Assembly (NCBI GenBank): GCA_030445745.1
Contig: JASUTE010000002.1
Span: 62,001 to 126,000, forward strand
DNA from: Candidatus Cloacimonadota bacterium
GTDB taxonomy: Bacteria > Cloacimonadota > Cloacimonadia > Cloacimonadales > TCS61
Direction of reading: 5' to 3'
Length of the DNA stretch: 64,000 bases
This document shows positions 47,147 to 55,110 of this stretch, one piece after another. The notes under the pieces are model-generated. The model saw only the letters and a list, made by a program, of their open reading frames with translations, was not told the DNA's origin and searched no databases. The number at the start of each line of letters is the position of its first letter. The first letter of the stretch is position 1. The position numbers were made by a program, and so were the translations under genes.

Positions 47147-47380
47147 ATGTGGAAAAAAATGCGTGAGTACGATAGGGAAATTCTGAAATATATCGGGTTG
47201 ATTTCGCAACTGGGGCTTTTAATGGTTTCCTCAATCCTGATTTTTTTCTTCTTAGGACTTTTTTTAGATAAACTCATCCACACGAGACCTCTGTTAACGA
47301 TAATATTTATAGCTCTTGGAGTCTTCACAGGAGGCTTTACAGTATATAAAACTTTGATGAAATTCTATGAAAAAGAATAA
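47147..47380 (+). CDS. AtpZ/AtpI-family protein
   Basis: A 77-residue protein with two transmembrane hairpin helices (IGLISQLGLLMVSSILIFFFLGLFLD and LLTIIFIALGVFTGGFTVYKTL, quoted in pieces). It matches the AtpZ type encoded upstream of many atp operons, where AtpI/AtpZ assist c-ring assembly and Mg2+ handling. It overlaps the next gene by 14 nt. Confidence 0.82.
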   Translation: MWKKMREYDREILKYIGLISQLGLLMVSSILIFFFLGLFLDKLIHTRPLLTIIFIALGVFTGGFTVYKTLMKFYEKE

Positions 47381-47744
47381 ATTAGTGAATCGGATTCTTT
47401 TTATAATTTTCTTGACAAACATACCAGCAATTTTGTCGTTGTTGATGTTTTTTAAAGAAGGAATTAGTTGGATACTTGGTTCTTTAATAAGCGCAGCAAA
47501 TTTTTGGTGGATGAGTCAGCAGACATATAAGCAATTTGGTCTACTGCAGGCACAGGCAAAAGCAAAAAGCCTTAAGTCTTTTTACATTAGGTACTTAGCT
47601 CTAATCGTCTGTGCGCTTGCGGTAGCTTATTTTGTTAAACCTAACCTAATAATTTTTGGGGTTAGTTTGCTTTCAGCTCAAATAGCTATCTACCTTAATG
47701 CTGCCTATGAAACGATAAAAAAGAACAAATATTTTAAAGGATAG
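47367..47744 (+). CDS. atpI: ATP synthase subunit I-like protein
   Basis: The 125-residue protein has four hydrophobic segments (for example ILFIIFLTNIPAILSLLMFF, LIVCALAVAYFV). Its position and topology are those of the AtpI chain preceding atpB. AtpI helps assemble the c-ring, which is of interest here because two different c-subunit genes follow. It ends 2 nt before atpB. Confidence 0.72.
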   Translation: MKKNKLVNRILFIIFLTNIPAILSLLMFFKEGISWILGSLISAANFWWMSQQTYKQFGLLQAQAKAKSLKSFYIRYLALIVCALAVAYFVKPNLIIFGVSLLSAQIAIYLNAAYETIKKNKYFKG

Positions 47745-47746
47745 GT

Positions 47747-48658
47747 ATGGCTCAAAAGAAAGGAAGTCTGCTAAGATATTTATTTCTGTTTTTGGTTATC
47801 GAAGTTGTGCTAATAGTTTTATCGAGCGGCCTTAATAAGCAGCTTCAAGTAGGTTACGACGACACAGGTAAATTTGTTTTCCAGAATGTGGAAAAAGAGT
47901 ATGACCTACAGGATAAGATCCAGGAAGAATTTCAGCCAGATGAATATGCCAAGCAAAATGGTATTTCACCTAAATTTTACGGTAGCTCTGCTCTATACGA
48001 TTTTTTTGCTAAAATTTTTGGAAAAGCAAATGCTATCAGCGCGTTTAATTTAATTAGAATGCTAATTATAGTTGACTTAGTGTTGCTTTTGGTAGCCTTT
48101 CTTATAAAAAAACAATTGTTTGAAAAACCATCAAAGCCTCAAATTATCTTCGAAATGATCTATACTACTTTCGAGGATTTTGTTAAAGATACATTAGGTA
48201 AAGAAAAGCTACATTTCACACCCTATATCGTTACTCTGTTTATTTTCATTTGGACATGCAATATGATTGGTTTAGTGCCAATTCCTGGATTCATGGAACC
48301 CACCCGCAACCTGAATGTACCCTTAGGCCTGGGAATTATGGCTGTAGCAGTAGTTCATTACATGTCGATTAAAACCAAGGGTCTGGGAAAATATCTAAAA
48401 GATTTTACCCAGCCTTTGCCACCAATGACACCGATAAATATTGTAGGAGAGTTTTCTAAAGTTATCTCCATTTCTTTTCGTTTATTTGGAAATATTTTAG
48501 GTGGTGCCATCATTGTTTTGGTGGTATCTTCTCTGGTTAAGTTTATAATATTGCCTGTTGGACTAAACCTATTCTTTGGCATATTTGTAGGAACAATACA
48601 GGCTTTTGTTTTCACTATGTTGGCTCTTACCTATATTGGTGTAGAGATAGCGGAGTAA
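47747..48658 (+). CDS. atpB: F-type ATP synthase subunit a
   Basis: The 303-residue membrane stator subunit forms the ion half-channels. The N-terminal periplasmic extension is long (about residues 25-95). Transmembrane segments follow, with NMIGLVPIPGF (about residue 168). The essential arginine region reads SISFRLFGNILGGAII (about residues 240-255), and QAFVFTMLALTYIGVEIAE is at the C-terminus. It is next to the two c-subunit genes, as in a normal atpB-atpE order. Confidence 0.95.
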   Translation: MAQKKGSLLRYLFLFLVIEVVLIVLSSGLNKQLQVGYDDTGKFVFQNVEKEYDLQDKIQEEFQPDEYAKQNGISPKFYGSSALYDFFAKIFGKANAISAFNLIRMLIIVDLVLLLVAFLIKKQLFEKPSKPQIIFEMIYTTFEDFVKDTLGKEKLHFTPYIVTLFIFIWTCNMIGLVPIPGFMEPTRNLNVPLGLGIMAVAVVHYMSIKTKGLGKYLKDFTQPLPPMTPINIVGEFSKVISISFRLFGNILGGAIIVLVVSSLVKFIILPVGLNLFFGIFVGTIQAFVFTMLALTYIGVEIAE

Positions 48659-48664
48659 AAAATT

Positions 48665-49414
48665 ATGATTTCAGAATCAATTTTGCAGATTACGGCTTAT
48701 TTAGGAGCAGGAATCGGAGTAGGAGTTGCTTCGGTTAGTGCTGGTATAGGAGAAGGTTACACGGCTGGAAATGCCGCACATTCGTTAATGCGACAACCTA
48801 AAGCTCATGACACACTTATCAACTCTATGCTGGTTAGCCAAGCTGTTACTGAAACCGGAGCGATCTTTTCTCTGGTTGTGGCCTTACTTCTTATTTTTGG
48901 TGGATTTACCGATCCAGCAGGCGGATGGTTCAAAGCAGCGTCTCTGCTAGCTGCGGGCATCGCTGTTGGCTTAGGTTCATTAGGCCCTGGTTTTGGTTCT
49001 GGTTACGCTGGCGGACAGGCTAGTAAATCTTTGGCCAGAATGCCAAAACACAGCAATGAAATTACTGGAAATATGCTCATTGGTCAGGCTTTAGCACAAA
49101 CAGATGCCATTTTTGCTCTGGTAGTTTCCCTTTTGCTGCTCTATTCCACTCCAAATCAGCCAGAAAATGCAGCTCTAGGAACTATAATTTTGAAATCAGT
49201 CGCCTTTATCGGTGCTGGTCTTGCAGTAGGGTTAGGAACGATTGGCCCAGGGGCAGGGATTGGTTTTGTTGCCGGCCAGGCAAATGGTATGATAGGAAGG
49301 TTTCCCAAGGAACGTTCAGCAATTATGAGAAACATGTTCTTGGGGGCAGCGGTTTCCGAATCAACCGCTATTTATGCTTTAGTAATAGCGTTTTTATTGA
49401 TTTTTGCAATATAA
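48665..49414 (+). CDS. atpE: Triplicated F-type ATP synthase c subunit (three fused hairpins)
   Basis: A 249-residue protein with six transmembrane helices made of three c-type hairpins at about residues 1-80, 88-162 and 170-249. Each has the glycine-rich helix (GIGEGY, GFGSGY, GAGIGF) and the ion-site helix (AVTETGAIF, ALAQTDAIF, AVSESTAIY). The ion-site positions, spaced exactly 33 residues apart, are E30/E63, S112/Q145 and I199/E232. Hairpin 2 therefore lacks any carboxylate. Normal c subunits have about 80 residues. It is followed 15 nt downstream by a separate single-hairpin c subunit. Confidence 0.93.
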   Translation: MISESILQITAYLGAGIGVGVASVSAGIGEGYTAGNAAHSLMRQPKAHDTLINSMLVSQAVTETGAIFSLVVALLLIFGGFTDPAGGWFKAASLLAAGIAVGLGSLGPGFGSGYAGGQASKSLARMPKHSNEITGNMLIGQALAQTDAIFALVVSLLLLYSTPNQPENAALGTIILKSVAFIGAGLAVGLGTIGPGAGIGFVAGQANGMIGRFPKERSAIMRNMFLGAAVSESTAIYALVIAFLLIFAI

Positions 49415-49429
49415 TTAATGGAGGATATT

Positions 49430-49666
49430 ATGGAACAAATTGCACGCGCAGCAGCTTTATTAGGAGCTGGTATTTGTATGGGAATGGGAGCATTAGGCCC
49501 AGGTTTAGGTGAAGGATTTGTAGCTGGTAAGGCTTGTGAAGGTCTAGCCAGGAGTCCCGAAAATGCAAGCTTGATTACCAGGACTATGCTGGTGGGTCAA
49601 GCAGTGTCTGAATCAACTGGTATTTATTCGCTGGTTATCGCTCTCTTACTTATTTTCTCTACTTAA
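49430..49666 (+). CDS. atpE: F-type ATP synthase c subunit, single hairpin, Na+-type two-carboxylate motif
   Basis: A 78-residue proteolipid. The start at 49430 is preceded by GGAGGATATT; an in-frame ATG 12 nt earlier has no ribosome site. Helix 1 carries GPGLGEGF with Glu28. Helix 2 carries AVSESTGIY with Val59, Glu61, Ser62, Thr63 and Tyr66. The pair of glutamates 33 residues apart plus the ESTxxY set is the sodium-binding signature known from Ilyobacter-type rings and from the Fusobacterium two-carboxylate ring. Na+ coupling is therefore predicted. Confidence 0.94.
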
Positions 49667-49738: not shown

Positions 49739-50227
49739 ATGATAAGTATTGATTATTCGCTCATCATAGTGATTCTTAACTTTGTTTTACTGCTTGTAAT
49801 TCTGAATAAGCTCTTGTATAATCCTATTCAGAACTTTCTAAAAGAGCGGAAGCTAAAAATAGAAAACGATATGAAACAGGCGGAAGAATCTCGAACACAA
49901 GCACAAAAATTGGAAAAAGAAAAAGAAAAAGAACTAAAAAAATCGGCTGAAGAGATACGCAATATGAAAAATAAAGCTAAAAGAGAAGCAGAAGACGAGG
50001 CAGATGAGATTCTTCACAGAGCTAAAGAGCACGAAAAACAAGTATTACGCGAAACCGAAGAGCAACTTAAACAAGAAAAGCAGAAGGCAATTCAAGAGGT
50101 GGAAGAATACCTATCTGAACTGGTGTCTTCTCTTTCAGCCAAATTGATATCGGAAAAATTGGATAAGAAAAAAGATGAGGAACTTCTAAAGAAAGTTCTT
50201 TCTGAAAGAGGAAGCAGTGAAGTATAA
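49739..50227 (+). CDS. atpF: F-type ATP synthase subunit b
   Basis: The 162-residue peripheral stalk subunit has one N-terminal transmembrane helix (YSLIIVILNFVLLLVILNKLLYNPI in part). A long charged coiled-coil (about residues 30-140) and a delta-binding C-terminus follow. TTGGAGATTTT precedes the ATG. It overlaps atpH by 11 nt. Confidence 0.94.
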   Translation: MISIDYSLIIVILNFVLLLVILNKLLYNPIQNFLKERKLKIENDMKQAEESRTQAQKLEKEKEKELKKSAEEIRNMKNKAKREAEDEADEILHRAKEHEKQVLRETEEQLKQEKQKAIQEVEEYLSELVSSLSAKLISEKLDKKKDEELLKKVLSERGSSEV

Positions 50228-50753
50228 ACTTTTAGCTCAGCGTTACTCCAGGGCTATTTTGAAGCTTATTGACAAAAAAGAATATCCCCAATTGCAGCAA
50301 GATATAAAACAATTACGGGAAATTTGCCAAATTTCAGTAGAGCAACTAAAGATACTCGATTCGATGCTGCTTTCATTTCCCAATAGAATAGAAGTGGGTA
50401 AACAACTGACAAAAAGTCTAAATTTCGAGGAAATCTGGACTAATCTAATCAAAATCTTAATTTCCAAACATAGGGTAGAAATACTTACAGCTATTTGCGA
50501 TGAACTGGAAGAACATATTTTGGCAACAAAAAATGAGTGCAAGGTCACTTTGCAGGTAGCTCATGAACACCCGGAAAAAACTATAGAGCAGATAAAACAG
50601 AAGGTGAAAAAAATCTTGAATAAAGAAATATTGGTAAATCTAAAAATAAATCCGGAAATTTTGGGCGGATTTGTTGCTGAAACTGACTCTCTGCGTATAG
50701 ACGGTTCTATTAAAAATAATTTAGTTAAATTTGTAAATATGAAATCCAAGTAA
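50217..50753 (+). CDS. atpH: F-type ATP synthase subunit delta
   Basis: The 178-residue subunit links the b stalk to the F1 head. It starts with [21 protein letters not shown], the typical N-terminal helix with YSRAI. The C-terminal conserved part is [25 protein letters not shown], quoted by its pieces ILGGFVAE and DGSIKNNL. The order b-delta-alpha-gamma-beta-epsilon is standard. Confidence 0.93.
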
Positions 50754-50764
50754 ACGAGGTTATA

Positions 50765-52264
50765 ATGAAGATTCAACCAGATGAAATAAGTTCGATATTA
50801 AAAGATAAGATAAACAAATTTAAATTCGATATAGATATCGCTGAAACTGGCAAAGTGGTTGAGATCGGCGATGGAATTGCCCGCATTTATGGTATGGATA
50901 ACGTAATGGCAGGCGAAATGGTCGAGTTTCCCGGAGGAGTAGTAGGCATGGTTTTAAACCTGGAAGAAGATAATGTGGGTTGTATAATTTTTGGCGAAAC
51001 CCGCAAAATTAAAGAGGGTGATATAGCCAAGCGGACTAAGCGTATTTTGCAAGTGCCAGTAGGTGAGGCTTTGCTGGGCAGAGTAGTCGATCCACTCGGG
51101 AATCCCTTAGATGGCAAAGGCGAAATAAAAGCTGAGAAATCCATGCCAGTAGAAAGAAAAGCTGAAGGTATTATTCAAAGACAGCCGGTGAAAGAACCTT
51201 TACAAACAGGAATTAAAGCTATCGACTCAATGATACCCATCGGCCGTGGTCAACGCGAGCTTATTATTGGGGATAGACAAACTGGTAAAACTGCTATTGT
51301 TGTCGATACAATTATAAACCAAAAGGATACTGATGTTATCTGCATATATGTGGCTGTAGGTCAAAAAAATTCTTCGGTAGGGAAAATAGTGAAAACATTG
51401 CAAAATAATGGGGCTATGGATTATACAATCGTGGTTAACGCATCTGCTTCGGAAGCAGCCGCATTGCAGTATCTGGCACCTTATGCCGGCTGCAGTATGG
51501 GCGAATATTTTCGCGATAAAGGCCAGCATGCTCTCATAATCTACGACGATCTTTCTAAACATGCTGTTTCTTATCGTGAAATTTCCCTGTTGTTGCGACG
51601 CCCACCTGGACGCGAAGCTTATCCCGGTGATGTGTTTTATCTGCATTCACGTTTATTGGAAAGAGCTGCTAAGCTAAATGATGATCTGGGAGGCGGGTCA
51701 CTTACAGCACTGCCTATCATCGAAACGCAAGCAGATGATATTACGGCTTATATTCCCACTAATCTTATCTCGATTACCGATGGCCAGATCTATCTGGGAA
51801 GTAAATTATTCTATTCCGGAGTTAGGCCTGCTATTAATGCGGGGCTATCAGTATCTCGCGTGGGAGGTAATGCGCAAATTAAATCGATGAAACATGTTAC
51901 CGGCCAGCTGCGGTTGGATTTAGCCCAATACAAGGAATTGGAAGCTTTCTCTAAATTTGGTTCCGATCTCGATAAAGCAACGCAAGCACGGTTACGCCGT
52001 GGAGAAAGACTGGTGGAAATTCTAAAACAAGACCAATATTCTCCTCTTCCTATTGCTAAACAGATCCTCATTATTTTTATGGCAAATCACGGCTATTTGG
52101 ACGATATAGAGATTGACAAAGTGGCAAAAGTTGAAGAAGAGCTCTATGCTACCCTCGATTCCGAATATAAAGATTTGATGAAACAGATAACTGAAAAGGA
52201 AATAGATGATAAGATGGAAGAAAAGATGAATCAGGTGTGCAAAAAGGTAATAGAAAAGTTCTAG
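50765..52264 (+). CDS. atpA: F-type ATP synthase subunit alpha
   Basis: The 499-residue F1 subunit has the P-loop GDRQTGKTA (about residues 169-177) and the conserved [15 protein letters not shown] before it. The alpha signature [14 protein letters not shown] is near residue 358. The size is normal. It binds ATP at the non-catalytic sites. Confidence 0.97.
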
Positions 52265-52271
52265 GAACGAT

Positions 52272-53126
52272 ATGGCGAACACACGAGATATAAAAAATAG
52301 GATAGATAGCGTAAAAAGCACCAGGCAGATTACCAATGCTATGAAAATGGTAGCGGCAGCGAAATTGAGACGTTCCCAAGAAAAGATCTTGGCTGCGCGA
52401 CCGTATGCTGACAATATAAACAAAATGCTGCGAAAACTAAAATTGAAAAATAAATTTACTGAACATCAACTATTGTATCCCAATCAAGATGCTGCCCGTA
52501 ACGCCTTTGTGTTTGTAACTTCCGACCGTGGACTATGTGGCGGTTTTAATTCTATGATTTCGAAACGTGCTCTAATTTATTTGGAAGAACACAAAAACAC
52601 CGATATTATTTGCATTGGGAAAAAAGGCTACGACTATATTCGCCAACATACAAATCTGGAAATAACCGAAAAATATTTTAATTTCTTCAATGAGATGGAT
52701 TTCTCTATTTCCAAACAGATTGCAGATGATTTACTAAAAAAATTCCTGAAGGGAGATTACGGAAAGATAGATATTCTCTACAATGAGTTTAAATCTGCAA
52801 TTCAGCAAAACATTATTACAAAGCAGTTGTTACCAATTGTACCAGCTGAAAATGAGGAGATTTCTACTCTGGATTTTATCTATGAACCAGATGACAACAC
52901 CATTATTAGCGAATTAGGGGAAAAATATATCGAAGTAGAGATTTGGCGCATTATGTTAGAATCTTCGGCAGCAGAACAGGGCGCTCGTATGACCGCTATG
53001 GATTCTGCTACCGATAATGCCGATGAATTAGTTGAAGAACTTACACTTAAATATAATCAGGTCAGACAATCAAGTATTACTAAAGAGATTATCGAGATAT
53101 CGTCTGGCGCAGAAGCTTTAAAATAA
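52272..53126 (+). CDS. atpG: F-type ATP synthase subunit gamma
   Basis: The 284-residue central shaft subunit. The N-terminal coiled-coil begins NTRDIKNRIDSVKSTRQITNAMKMVAAAKLRR (in pieces RIDSVKSTRQITNAMKMV). The Rossmann-like middle contains FVTSDRGLCGGFN. The C-terminal signature is MTAMDSATDNADELVEELTL. It rotates inside the alpha3beta3 head. Confidence 0.96.
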   Translation: MANTRDIKNRIDSVKSTRQITNAMKMVAAAKLRRSQEKILAARPYADNINKMLRKLKLKNKFTEHQLLYPNQDAARNAFVFVTSDRGLCGGFNSMISKRALIYLEEHKNTDIICIGKKGYDYIRQHTNLEITEKYFNFFNEMDFSISKQIADDLLKKFLKGDYGKIDILYNEFKSAIQQNIITKQLLPIVPAENEEISTLDFIYEPDDNTIISELGEKYIEVEIWRIMLESSAAEQGARMTAMDSATDNADELVEELTLKYNQVRQSSITKEIIEISSGAEALK

Positions 53127-53131
53127 AATAA

Positions 53132-54705
<1,574 letters not shown>

Positions 54706-54706
<1 letters not shown>

Positions 54707-55110
54707 TGGACAAGGTTCACTTGGATATCTTTCAGCCGCAACAAGTAAAATTGCAGGATGATTTTGACCATGTAATTGTCCCTGGCATAGAAGGCGATTT
54801 TGGAATCTCAATTGGACATACTCCGTTTATCACTATGCTAAGGCCGGGAGTAATAAGTGCATACAAAGGAGATAAAGTCGATAATTATGCTATTCATGAT
54901 GGCTTTGTTACAGTAGAAGATGATAAGGTTGTAATAACTTGTCAGACCATTGAGGCAGCAGCAGAGATAGATGCCCAGAGAGCCAAAAAGGCTAAGCAGC
55001 GTGCAGAAAAGCGGCTGCAGGCACCTCCCGATAGCTCCGATATCGATTTTCGCCGGGCAGAGTTAGCACTGAAAAGATCACTAGTCAGACTTAGTCTGAA
55101 AGAATCATAA
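54706..55110 (+). CDS. atpC: F-type ATP synthase subunit epsilon
   Basis: The 134-residue subunit has the N-terminal beta-sandwich with VPGIEGDFGISIGHTPFITMLRPG (pieces GDFGISIGHTPF, LRPG) and the HDGFVTVEDDKVVI block. A C-terminal helical pair (about residues 85-134) is rich in Ala, Lys and Arg. It regulates ATPase activity and couples rotation. It overlaps atpD by one base and is followed by a terminator. Confidence 0.93.

Follow-up and report, generated by a model that had tools for sequence, protein, structure and literature searches.

A three-hairpin c subunit beside a single-hairpin c gene suggests a hybrid Na+-type ATP synthase rotor in Cloacimonadota

What kind of rotor does an F-type ATP synthase operon build if its c subunit consists of three fused hairpins, one of them devoid of ion-binding carboxylates? 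The question is posed by a 64,000-nucleotide stretch of the genome of a Candidatus Cloacimonadota bacterium (assembly GCA_030445745.1, contig JASUTE010000002.1, positions 62,001 to 126,000; hereafter the window), in which an atpE-like gene on the forward strand (48665..49414) encodes a 249-residue c subunit with six transmembrane helices. A preliminary description of the window took this triple gene for the whole rotor and overlooked the adjoining forward-strand gene (49418..49666) for a single-hairpin c subunit with two carboxylates. Taking both genes together, we consider it probable that the product of the operon is an F1Fo ATP synthase of the Na+ type whose c-ring is a hybrid of single c and fused triple c subunits.

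The triple gene matched PF00137 (2e-43) in three stretches, and each hairpin was also matched separately in the genome search. Its site pairs lie 33 residues apart in all three hairpins, exactly as first described. Hairpin 1 (residues 10-78; 48692..48898, forward strand like the other two) has both of its own carboxylates, E30 (48752-48754) and E63 (48851-48853), along with T64 and F68. Hairpin 2 (residues 92-160; 48938..49144) is carboxylate-free, with S112 (48998-49000) opposite Q145 (49097-49099), and carries F150. Hairpin 3 (residues 179-247; 49199..49405) combines I199 (49259-49261) with E232 (49358-49360) and bears V230, S233, T234 and Y237, so that its own site is predicted to be incomplete and its motif for lending ligands to the next subunit complete. 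Carboxylates are thus found in two of three hairpins, and fewer carboxylates than hairpins is a mark of hybrid rotors. The remainder of the operon is F-type, as had been claimed, with matches above cut-off for subunits a (PF00119), c (PF00137), b (PF00430), delta (PF00213), alpha (TIGR00962) and beta (TIGR01039).

The single-hairpin gene, listed with 82 residues, has its likely start at ATG 49430 behind a GGAGG motif. In Ilyobacter-type numbering its product carries E32 (49511-49513), V63, E65 (49610-49612), S66, T67 and Y70, residues that by sequence make up a full two-carboxylate Na+ site of the Fusobacterium type; the identity of this motif with that of Fusobacterium nucleatum (PMC3692424) supports the Na+-type reading. 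Its closest solved relatives are Acetobacterium woodii c1 (4bem_J) and the c11 rings of F. nucleatum (3zk1) and Ilyobacter tartaricus (1yce). The latter two share the two-carboxylate or Na+ motif, but form homomeric rings without a fused c. Among relatives the single c is near-invariant at E65 (68/68), Y70 (67/68), E32 and S66 (66/68 each) and V63 and T67 (65/68 each).

Multi-hairpin and single-hairpin c genes within one F-type operon are the arrangement of a hybrid rotor, and since the single c gene lies directly downstream of the triple, the right comparison is with the hybrid rotors of A. woodii and Clostridium aceticum. In A. woodii (AtpE1, that is c1, with c2/c3; Protein Data Bank (PDB) entry 4BEM), a fused c likewise stands beside single-hairpin Na+ c subunits, with Glu in hairpin 1 and Gln in hairpin 2. 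This c1 is the closest solved sequence to the triple c (4bem_J, 1.1e-28), aligning to hairpins 1-2 in the same E-then-Q order. It differs in having two hairpins rather than three and Gln as both helix-1 ligands, and in its single dead position, compared with one dead plus one incomplete position in the window and up to three dead positions in the window's relatives. A shared origin with A. woodii c1 was not supported, as its hairpins grouped with A. woodii c2 in a tree with few outgroups and a short alignment, indicating a separate duplication. C. aceticum encodes a double-hairpin c1 of the 'E..Q' type (atpE1) followed by a single c2 (atpE2), and its ATPase is Na+-dependent (PMC7911925). Gene order and the 'ET' then 'QT' helix-2 motifs agree with the window, but its c is double, with one position lost, where the window has a triple.

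Other fused c subunits are more remote. The proteolipid of Methanocaldococcus jannaschii also has three fused hairpins (PMC2359735), but belongs to an archaeal A-type enzyme. Against NF004913 (V-type subunit K, 220 positions) the window's triple c scored 76.8 bits, below the curated cut-off of 211, which by this criterion places it outside the A-type triples. The original M. jannaschii report is said to give six transmembrane segments and two carboxylates in its title, and we know of no single-hairpin partner for that protein. The V-type K subunit of Enterococcus hirae shares fused hairpins and a composite site common to neighbouring hairpins; it differs in enzyme type, in having only four transmembrane segments and in sequence family. 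Our literature search returned no paper describing a triple-c carboxylate series; the hybrid-rotor survey of Brandt and Mueller (2015), which lay outside that search, reportedly lists a dozen anaerobes that combine an Fo-type with a Vo-type c. Hybrid rotors as such are already known. The triple form is unusual, as the preliminary description held for six-helix versions within F-type operons, and what is notable is a series reaching zero carboxylates together with the residue rule set out below.

The query matched 38 of 40 genomes (18 genera) in the window's family. A near-full-length triple gene is present in at least 36 of these, and the single c follows it in nearly every case. The pair is present across 12 families of Cloacimonadota. 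Phylum-wide, 72/124 genomes match the triple c, and an F-type a subunit is likewise found in 72/124. One contig, JABMPU010000218.1, is titled 'Armatimonadetes bacterium' and encodes a triple c 79% identical; the title is probably misassigned. An assembly artefact, a frameshift or a decaying pseudogene would be suggested by the frameshifts that a few relatives (L047, L074) show in draft assemblies. However, 64 complete triples with open frames of 240-284 codons, from independent assemblies and under strong purifying selection, refute this explanation, to which we assign practically no weight, and they settle the misassembly check that had been proposed.

How constant is the pattern of carboxylates? 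We read 66 triples, comprising the 64 complete ones and two broken at hairpin 3 (one frameshifted, one truncated). The helix-2 position was Glu in 39, Gln in 25 and Gly in two for hairpin 1; Gln in 58 and Glu in eight for hairpin 2; and Glu in 56 and Gln in eight for hairpin 3, apart from the two broken sequences. The helix-1 position of hairpin 3 (I199 in the window) was Ile in 62/66 and Val in 4/66. Counted per complete triple, three helix-2 carboxylates occur in eight, two in 24, all with the window's E/Q/E pattern, one in 30 and none in two. Neither genome with a zero-carboxylate triple (L010 in G035, L044 in G028) shows V-type genes or a second F-type a subunit. The Glu and Gln codons lie one base apart (GAA/GAG versus CAA/CAG). 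In a tree made after masking the site columns, the site changed twice in hairpin 1, three times in hairpin 2 and six times in hairpin 3, one of the six being the frameshifted L047. Helix 1 and helix 2 changed together in hairpin 1 (E..E to S..Q in 25 taxa) and, in family f13, in hairpin 2 (N..Q to I..E). Relatives with Glu in hairpin 2, which the preliminary description would have counted against itself, do exist (8/64, at three places in the tree): it arises twice inside the otherwise Gln-bearing f13 and once in f11, marking evolutionary change rather than an error. Whole-hairpin conversion from hairpin 3 was considered as the route of this return and found no support, as hairpin 2-3 identity is no higher there (36-46%).

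The tree of individual hairpins that had been called for, with 21 taxa, recovered hairpins 1, 2 and 3 each as one supported group (97/98, 98/94 and 100/99), and sequence comparison therefore indicates a single triplication older than the sampled families. The ratio of nonsynonymous to synonymous changes (pN/pS) was 0.02-0.09 per hairpin in Gln-rich groups and 0.20-0.25 in an E/Q/E sample of just four pairs, which are more diverged and have synonymous sites near saturation. By this measure, purifying selection maintains the carboxylate-free hairpins, and the dead hairpins are not decaying. The window's fused c has three hairpins, not the two of a V-type c1, and a two-hairpin c was seen in one relative (L073, genome G123), the second hairpin of which looks like an in-frame fusion of hairpin 2 helix 1 with hairpin 3 helix 2.

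Multi-hairpin c genes also occur elsewhere. A wider sample comprised 386 genomes, of which about 260 lie outside Cloacimonadota, and added 16 genomes with strong matches. Their genes carry two to four hairpins, with some genes cut short by the end of a contig; they lie in F-type operons and are followed by an E/E single c wherever the contig allows. Both of two carboxylates are kept in L096 and L097, and none in L099 (four hairpins), L100 and L104; another zero-carboxylate gene is apparently split over L102/L103. In a second phylum (12 genomes), five of the seven triples read are Ser/Gln/Gln (L104, L107-L110). One of these, the carboxylate-free L109 (G392), has lost the Tyr of its last hairpin (AQSPSVF); no single c was found at its locus, and one lies on another contig. 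All multi-hairpin c genes across phyla may or may not share one origin; in the tree, first/middle hairpins split from last/single ones with support of 52/91.

These losses appear to follow a rule, by which a site consists of the two acids of its own hairpin plus Val, Ser, Thr and Tyr lent by the preceding hairpin. In Ilyobacter, Glu65A and Gln32A of one subunit act with Ser66B, Val63B and Tyr70B of its neighbour (PMC2359735; also PMC3692424), and in the fused E. hirae subunit Glu139 and Gln110 act with Thr64, Leu61 and Tyr68, the lender being the preceding hairpin (PMC2359735). The sequences collected here fit. Tyr is present in the last hairpin of all 64 phylum members, among them the eight in which Gln replaces that hairpin's own Glu; outside the phylum the count is 14/15. 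Internal hairpins that precede an incomplete site carry Phe (128/128 in the phylum, 26/26 outside), and those that precede a complete one carry Tyr (2/2). A. woodii c1 conforms: at the Tyr70 position its first hairpin has Phe and its last one Tyr. The last hairpin thus appears to retain its lending motif even without an acid of its own. Applied to the window, the rule predicts a full Na+ site in hairpin 1, a dead hairpin 2 and a hairpin 3 that is degenerate, yet needed for its neighbour.

Such a ring would consist mostly of single two-carboxylate c subunits, with the fused triple c taking the place of a stretch of them. Each hairpin n would contribute E32 and E65, and hairpin n-1 would lend the Val63 carbonyl, Ser66, Thr67 and Tyr70. 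The Na+ site of hairpin 1 would be completed by the subunit before the triple, hairpin 2 would be a dead position, hairpin 3 a degenerate one (E232 with Ile, no Tyr; H+-like or vestigial), and hairpin 3 would in turn complete the site of the single c that follows. The stator would then face an inbuilt gap in which one or two hairpins lack a Na+ site. Ring geometry would be unchanged, with fewer ions per turn and an ion/ATP ratio below one-third of the hairpin number, so that the earlier proposal of fewer ion sites than hairpins stands as an expectation. Purely as an illustration, eleven hairpins including one triple would offer nine or ten sites with a triple of the window's type, and eight with the zero-carboxylate type.

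Hairpin 3 invites a mixed-ion variant, in which single c and hairpin 1 carry Na+ and hairpin 3 carries H+. Its Ile/Glu pair, which we liken to Ile28/Asp61 of Escherichia coli, has an aliphatic residue at the Na+ ligand position in every triple, while E232 is kept in 56/66. The helix-2 Glu credited to hairpin 3 in the preliminary description is indeed there, but the site is doubtful: E232 lacks the helix-1 ligand, I199 standing in its place, the predicted donor hairpin has F150 where the rule asks for Tyr, and the Glu gave way to Gln about five times independently in relatives. We regard the variant as improbable.

Does the triple c belong to working rings at all? It might instead serve in assembly or quality control, or inhibit the few rings that contain it, and working rings would then be built from single c alone. 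Its carboxylates have been dispensable over evolution (zero to three kept), zero-carboxylate forms exist, and the Shine-Dalgarno sequence of the single c is stronger than that of the triple in 50/60 pairs, with start codons picked by script. This role nevertheless seems unlikely to us, given that the stalk-facing turn loop residues of hairpins 1 and 2 (Q44, P45, R125 and P127) are conserved in 66/66 triples, that the last hairpin keeps exactly the motif for completing a neighbour's site, and that the crystallised A. woodii ring (4BEM) includes c1. Precedents in A. woodii and C. aceticum, the conserved loops and a ribosome-binding site that is stronger for the single c together argue for a hybrid ring with many single and few triple subunits.

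Several points weigh against this hybrid ring. The place and copy number of the triple protein in it are what we infer, and a structure prediction from only two input sequences reached a predicted local distance difference test (pLDDT) score of just 41.6. The counts behind the composite-site rule are non-independent, being largely inherited within the phylum and drawn from about 14 families outside, and there are exceptions, with Phe in one last hairpin outside the phylum (L091) and QSPSVF at the end of L109. Most directly, a single E56Q in a fused c10 ring of Bacillus PS3 abolishes both ATP synthesis and pumping (Mitome et al., PMC8809890), so that a gap spanning several hairpins would be expected to do harm in an enzyme without adaptations. 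Three readings would square with PS3: an adapted stator, a triple that is seldom built into rings, or a gap that acts as a brake. A brake would stall the rotor at the gap unless ion-motive force (or ATP pressure) is high, thereby sparing wasteful ATP hydrolysis when energy is low. That one Glu-to-Gln change blocks PS3 rotation both ways (PMC8809890) and that gaps of up to three to four hairpins have evolved speak for it; however, sequence measures no threshold, and the brake is compatible with, and inseparable from, the hybrid ring proposed here. We rate it as a minority possibility. With more reserve than for the window itself, and at somewhat less than even odds, we suggest that F-type synthases of several bacterial phyla may operate with two to four consecutive rotor hairpins covalently joined in a block, which in some taxa is wholly carboxylate-free. 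Their motors would step over a gap that exceeds the a/c contact zone in width. Gln would be the main substitute for the carboxylate, and the last hairpin would be retained solely for the completion of its neighbour's Na+ site.

The operon runs on the forward strand in the order atpZ-like, atpI, a, triple c, single c, b, delta, alpha, gamma, beta, epsilon. It opens with an ATPase_gene1/AtpZ-like gene (47147..47380; PF09527) and an AtpI gene (47367..47744; PF03899), the latter assigned at family level to the c-ring assembly factors, a role described for AtpI (PMC7911925) and otherwise established. Next comes atpB for subunit a (47747..48658), whose essential Arg, R245 within SFRLFGN, is kept in 69/69 relatives having that position. 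The two c genes are followed by atpF (b, 49739..50227), atpH (delta, 50217..50753), atpA (alpha, 50765..52264), atpG (gamma, 52272..53126), atpD (beta, 53141..54706) and atpC (epsilon, 54706..55110); gamma and epsilon were assigned by sequence and operon position. The beta subunit ends in a Lys/Glu-rich tail of about 55 residues (54518-54703); f13 relatives have a similar but unaligned tail, and most others none.

A search across the window's genome found neither V-type gene matches nor further c genes, and the triple/single-c enzyme is therefore likely its sole rotary ATPase. V-type genes (PF01813) were detected in 50/124 phylum genomes. Family f2, where the triple is absent, accounts for 47 of these. 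F-type and V-type ATPases are nearly exclusive of each other in the phylum. Two f2 genomes (G062, locus L075; G080, locus L076) have an extra F-type operon with a single c, and its a subunits (IRLFGNMMSG and VRLFGNIMSG) resemble those of N-ATPases. Rnf/Nqr and membrane pyrophosphatase genes are present in the window's genome; an F-type ATP synthase, for which Na+ dependence was proposed, is reported for Cloacimonadota of Ace Lake along with Rnf, Nqr and HppA (PMC8542988). Searches of plasmid and viral collections gave no useful match; for the PLSDB 'plasmid' NZ_CP154629.1 of Acetoanaerobium noterae, its size of 2.63 Mb and an ATP-synthase-like match suggest a chromosome.

Taken together, one phylum offers a natural series in what is apparently the main ATP synthase: the fused rotor block has three, two, one or no carboxylates, and the single c next to it is unchanged. 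The PS3 motor is stopped in both directions by one Gln (Mitome et al., PMC8809890), whereas nature appears to run such motors. With these matched natural enzymes it becomes testable how long a succession of ion-free steps a rotary motor can bear, and what sets the ion/ATP ratio of anaerobes living under energy limitation.
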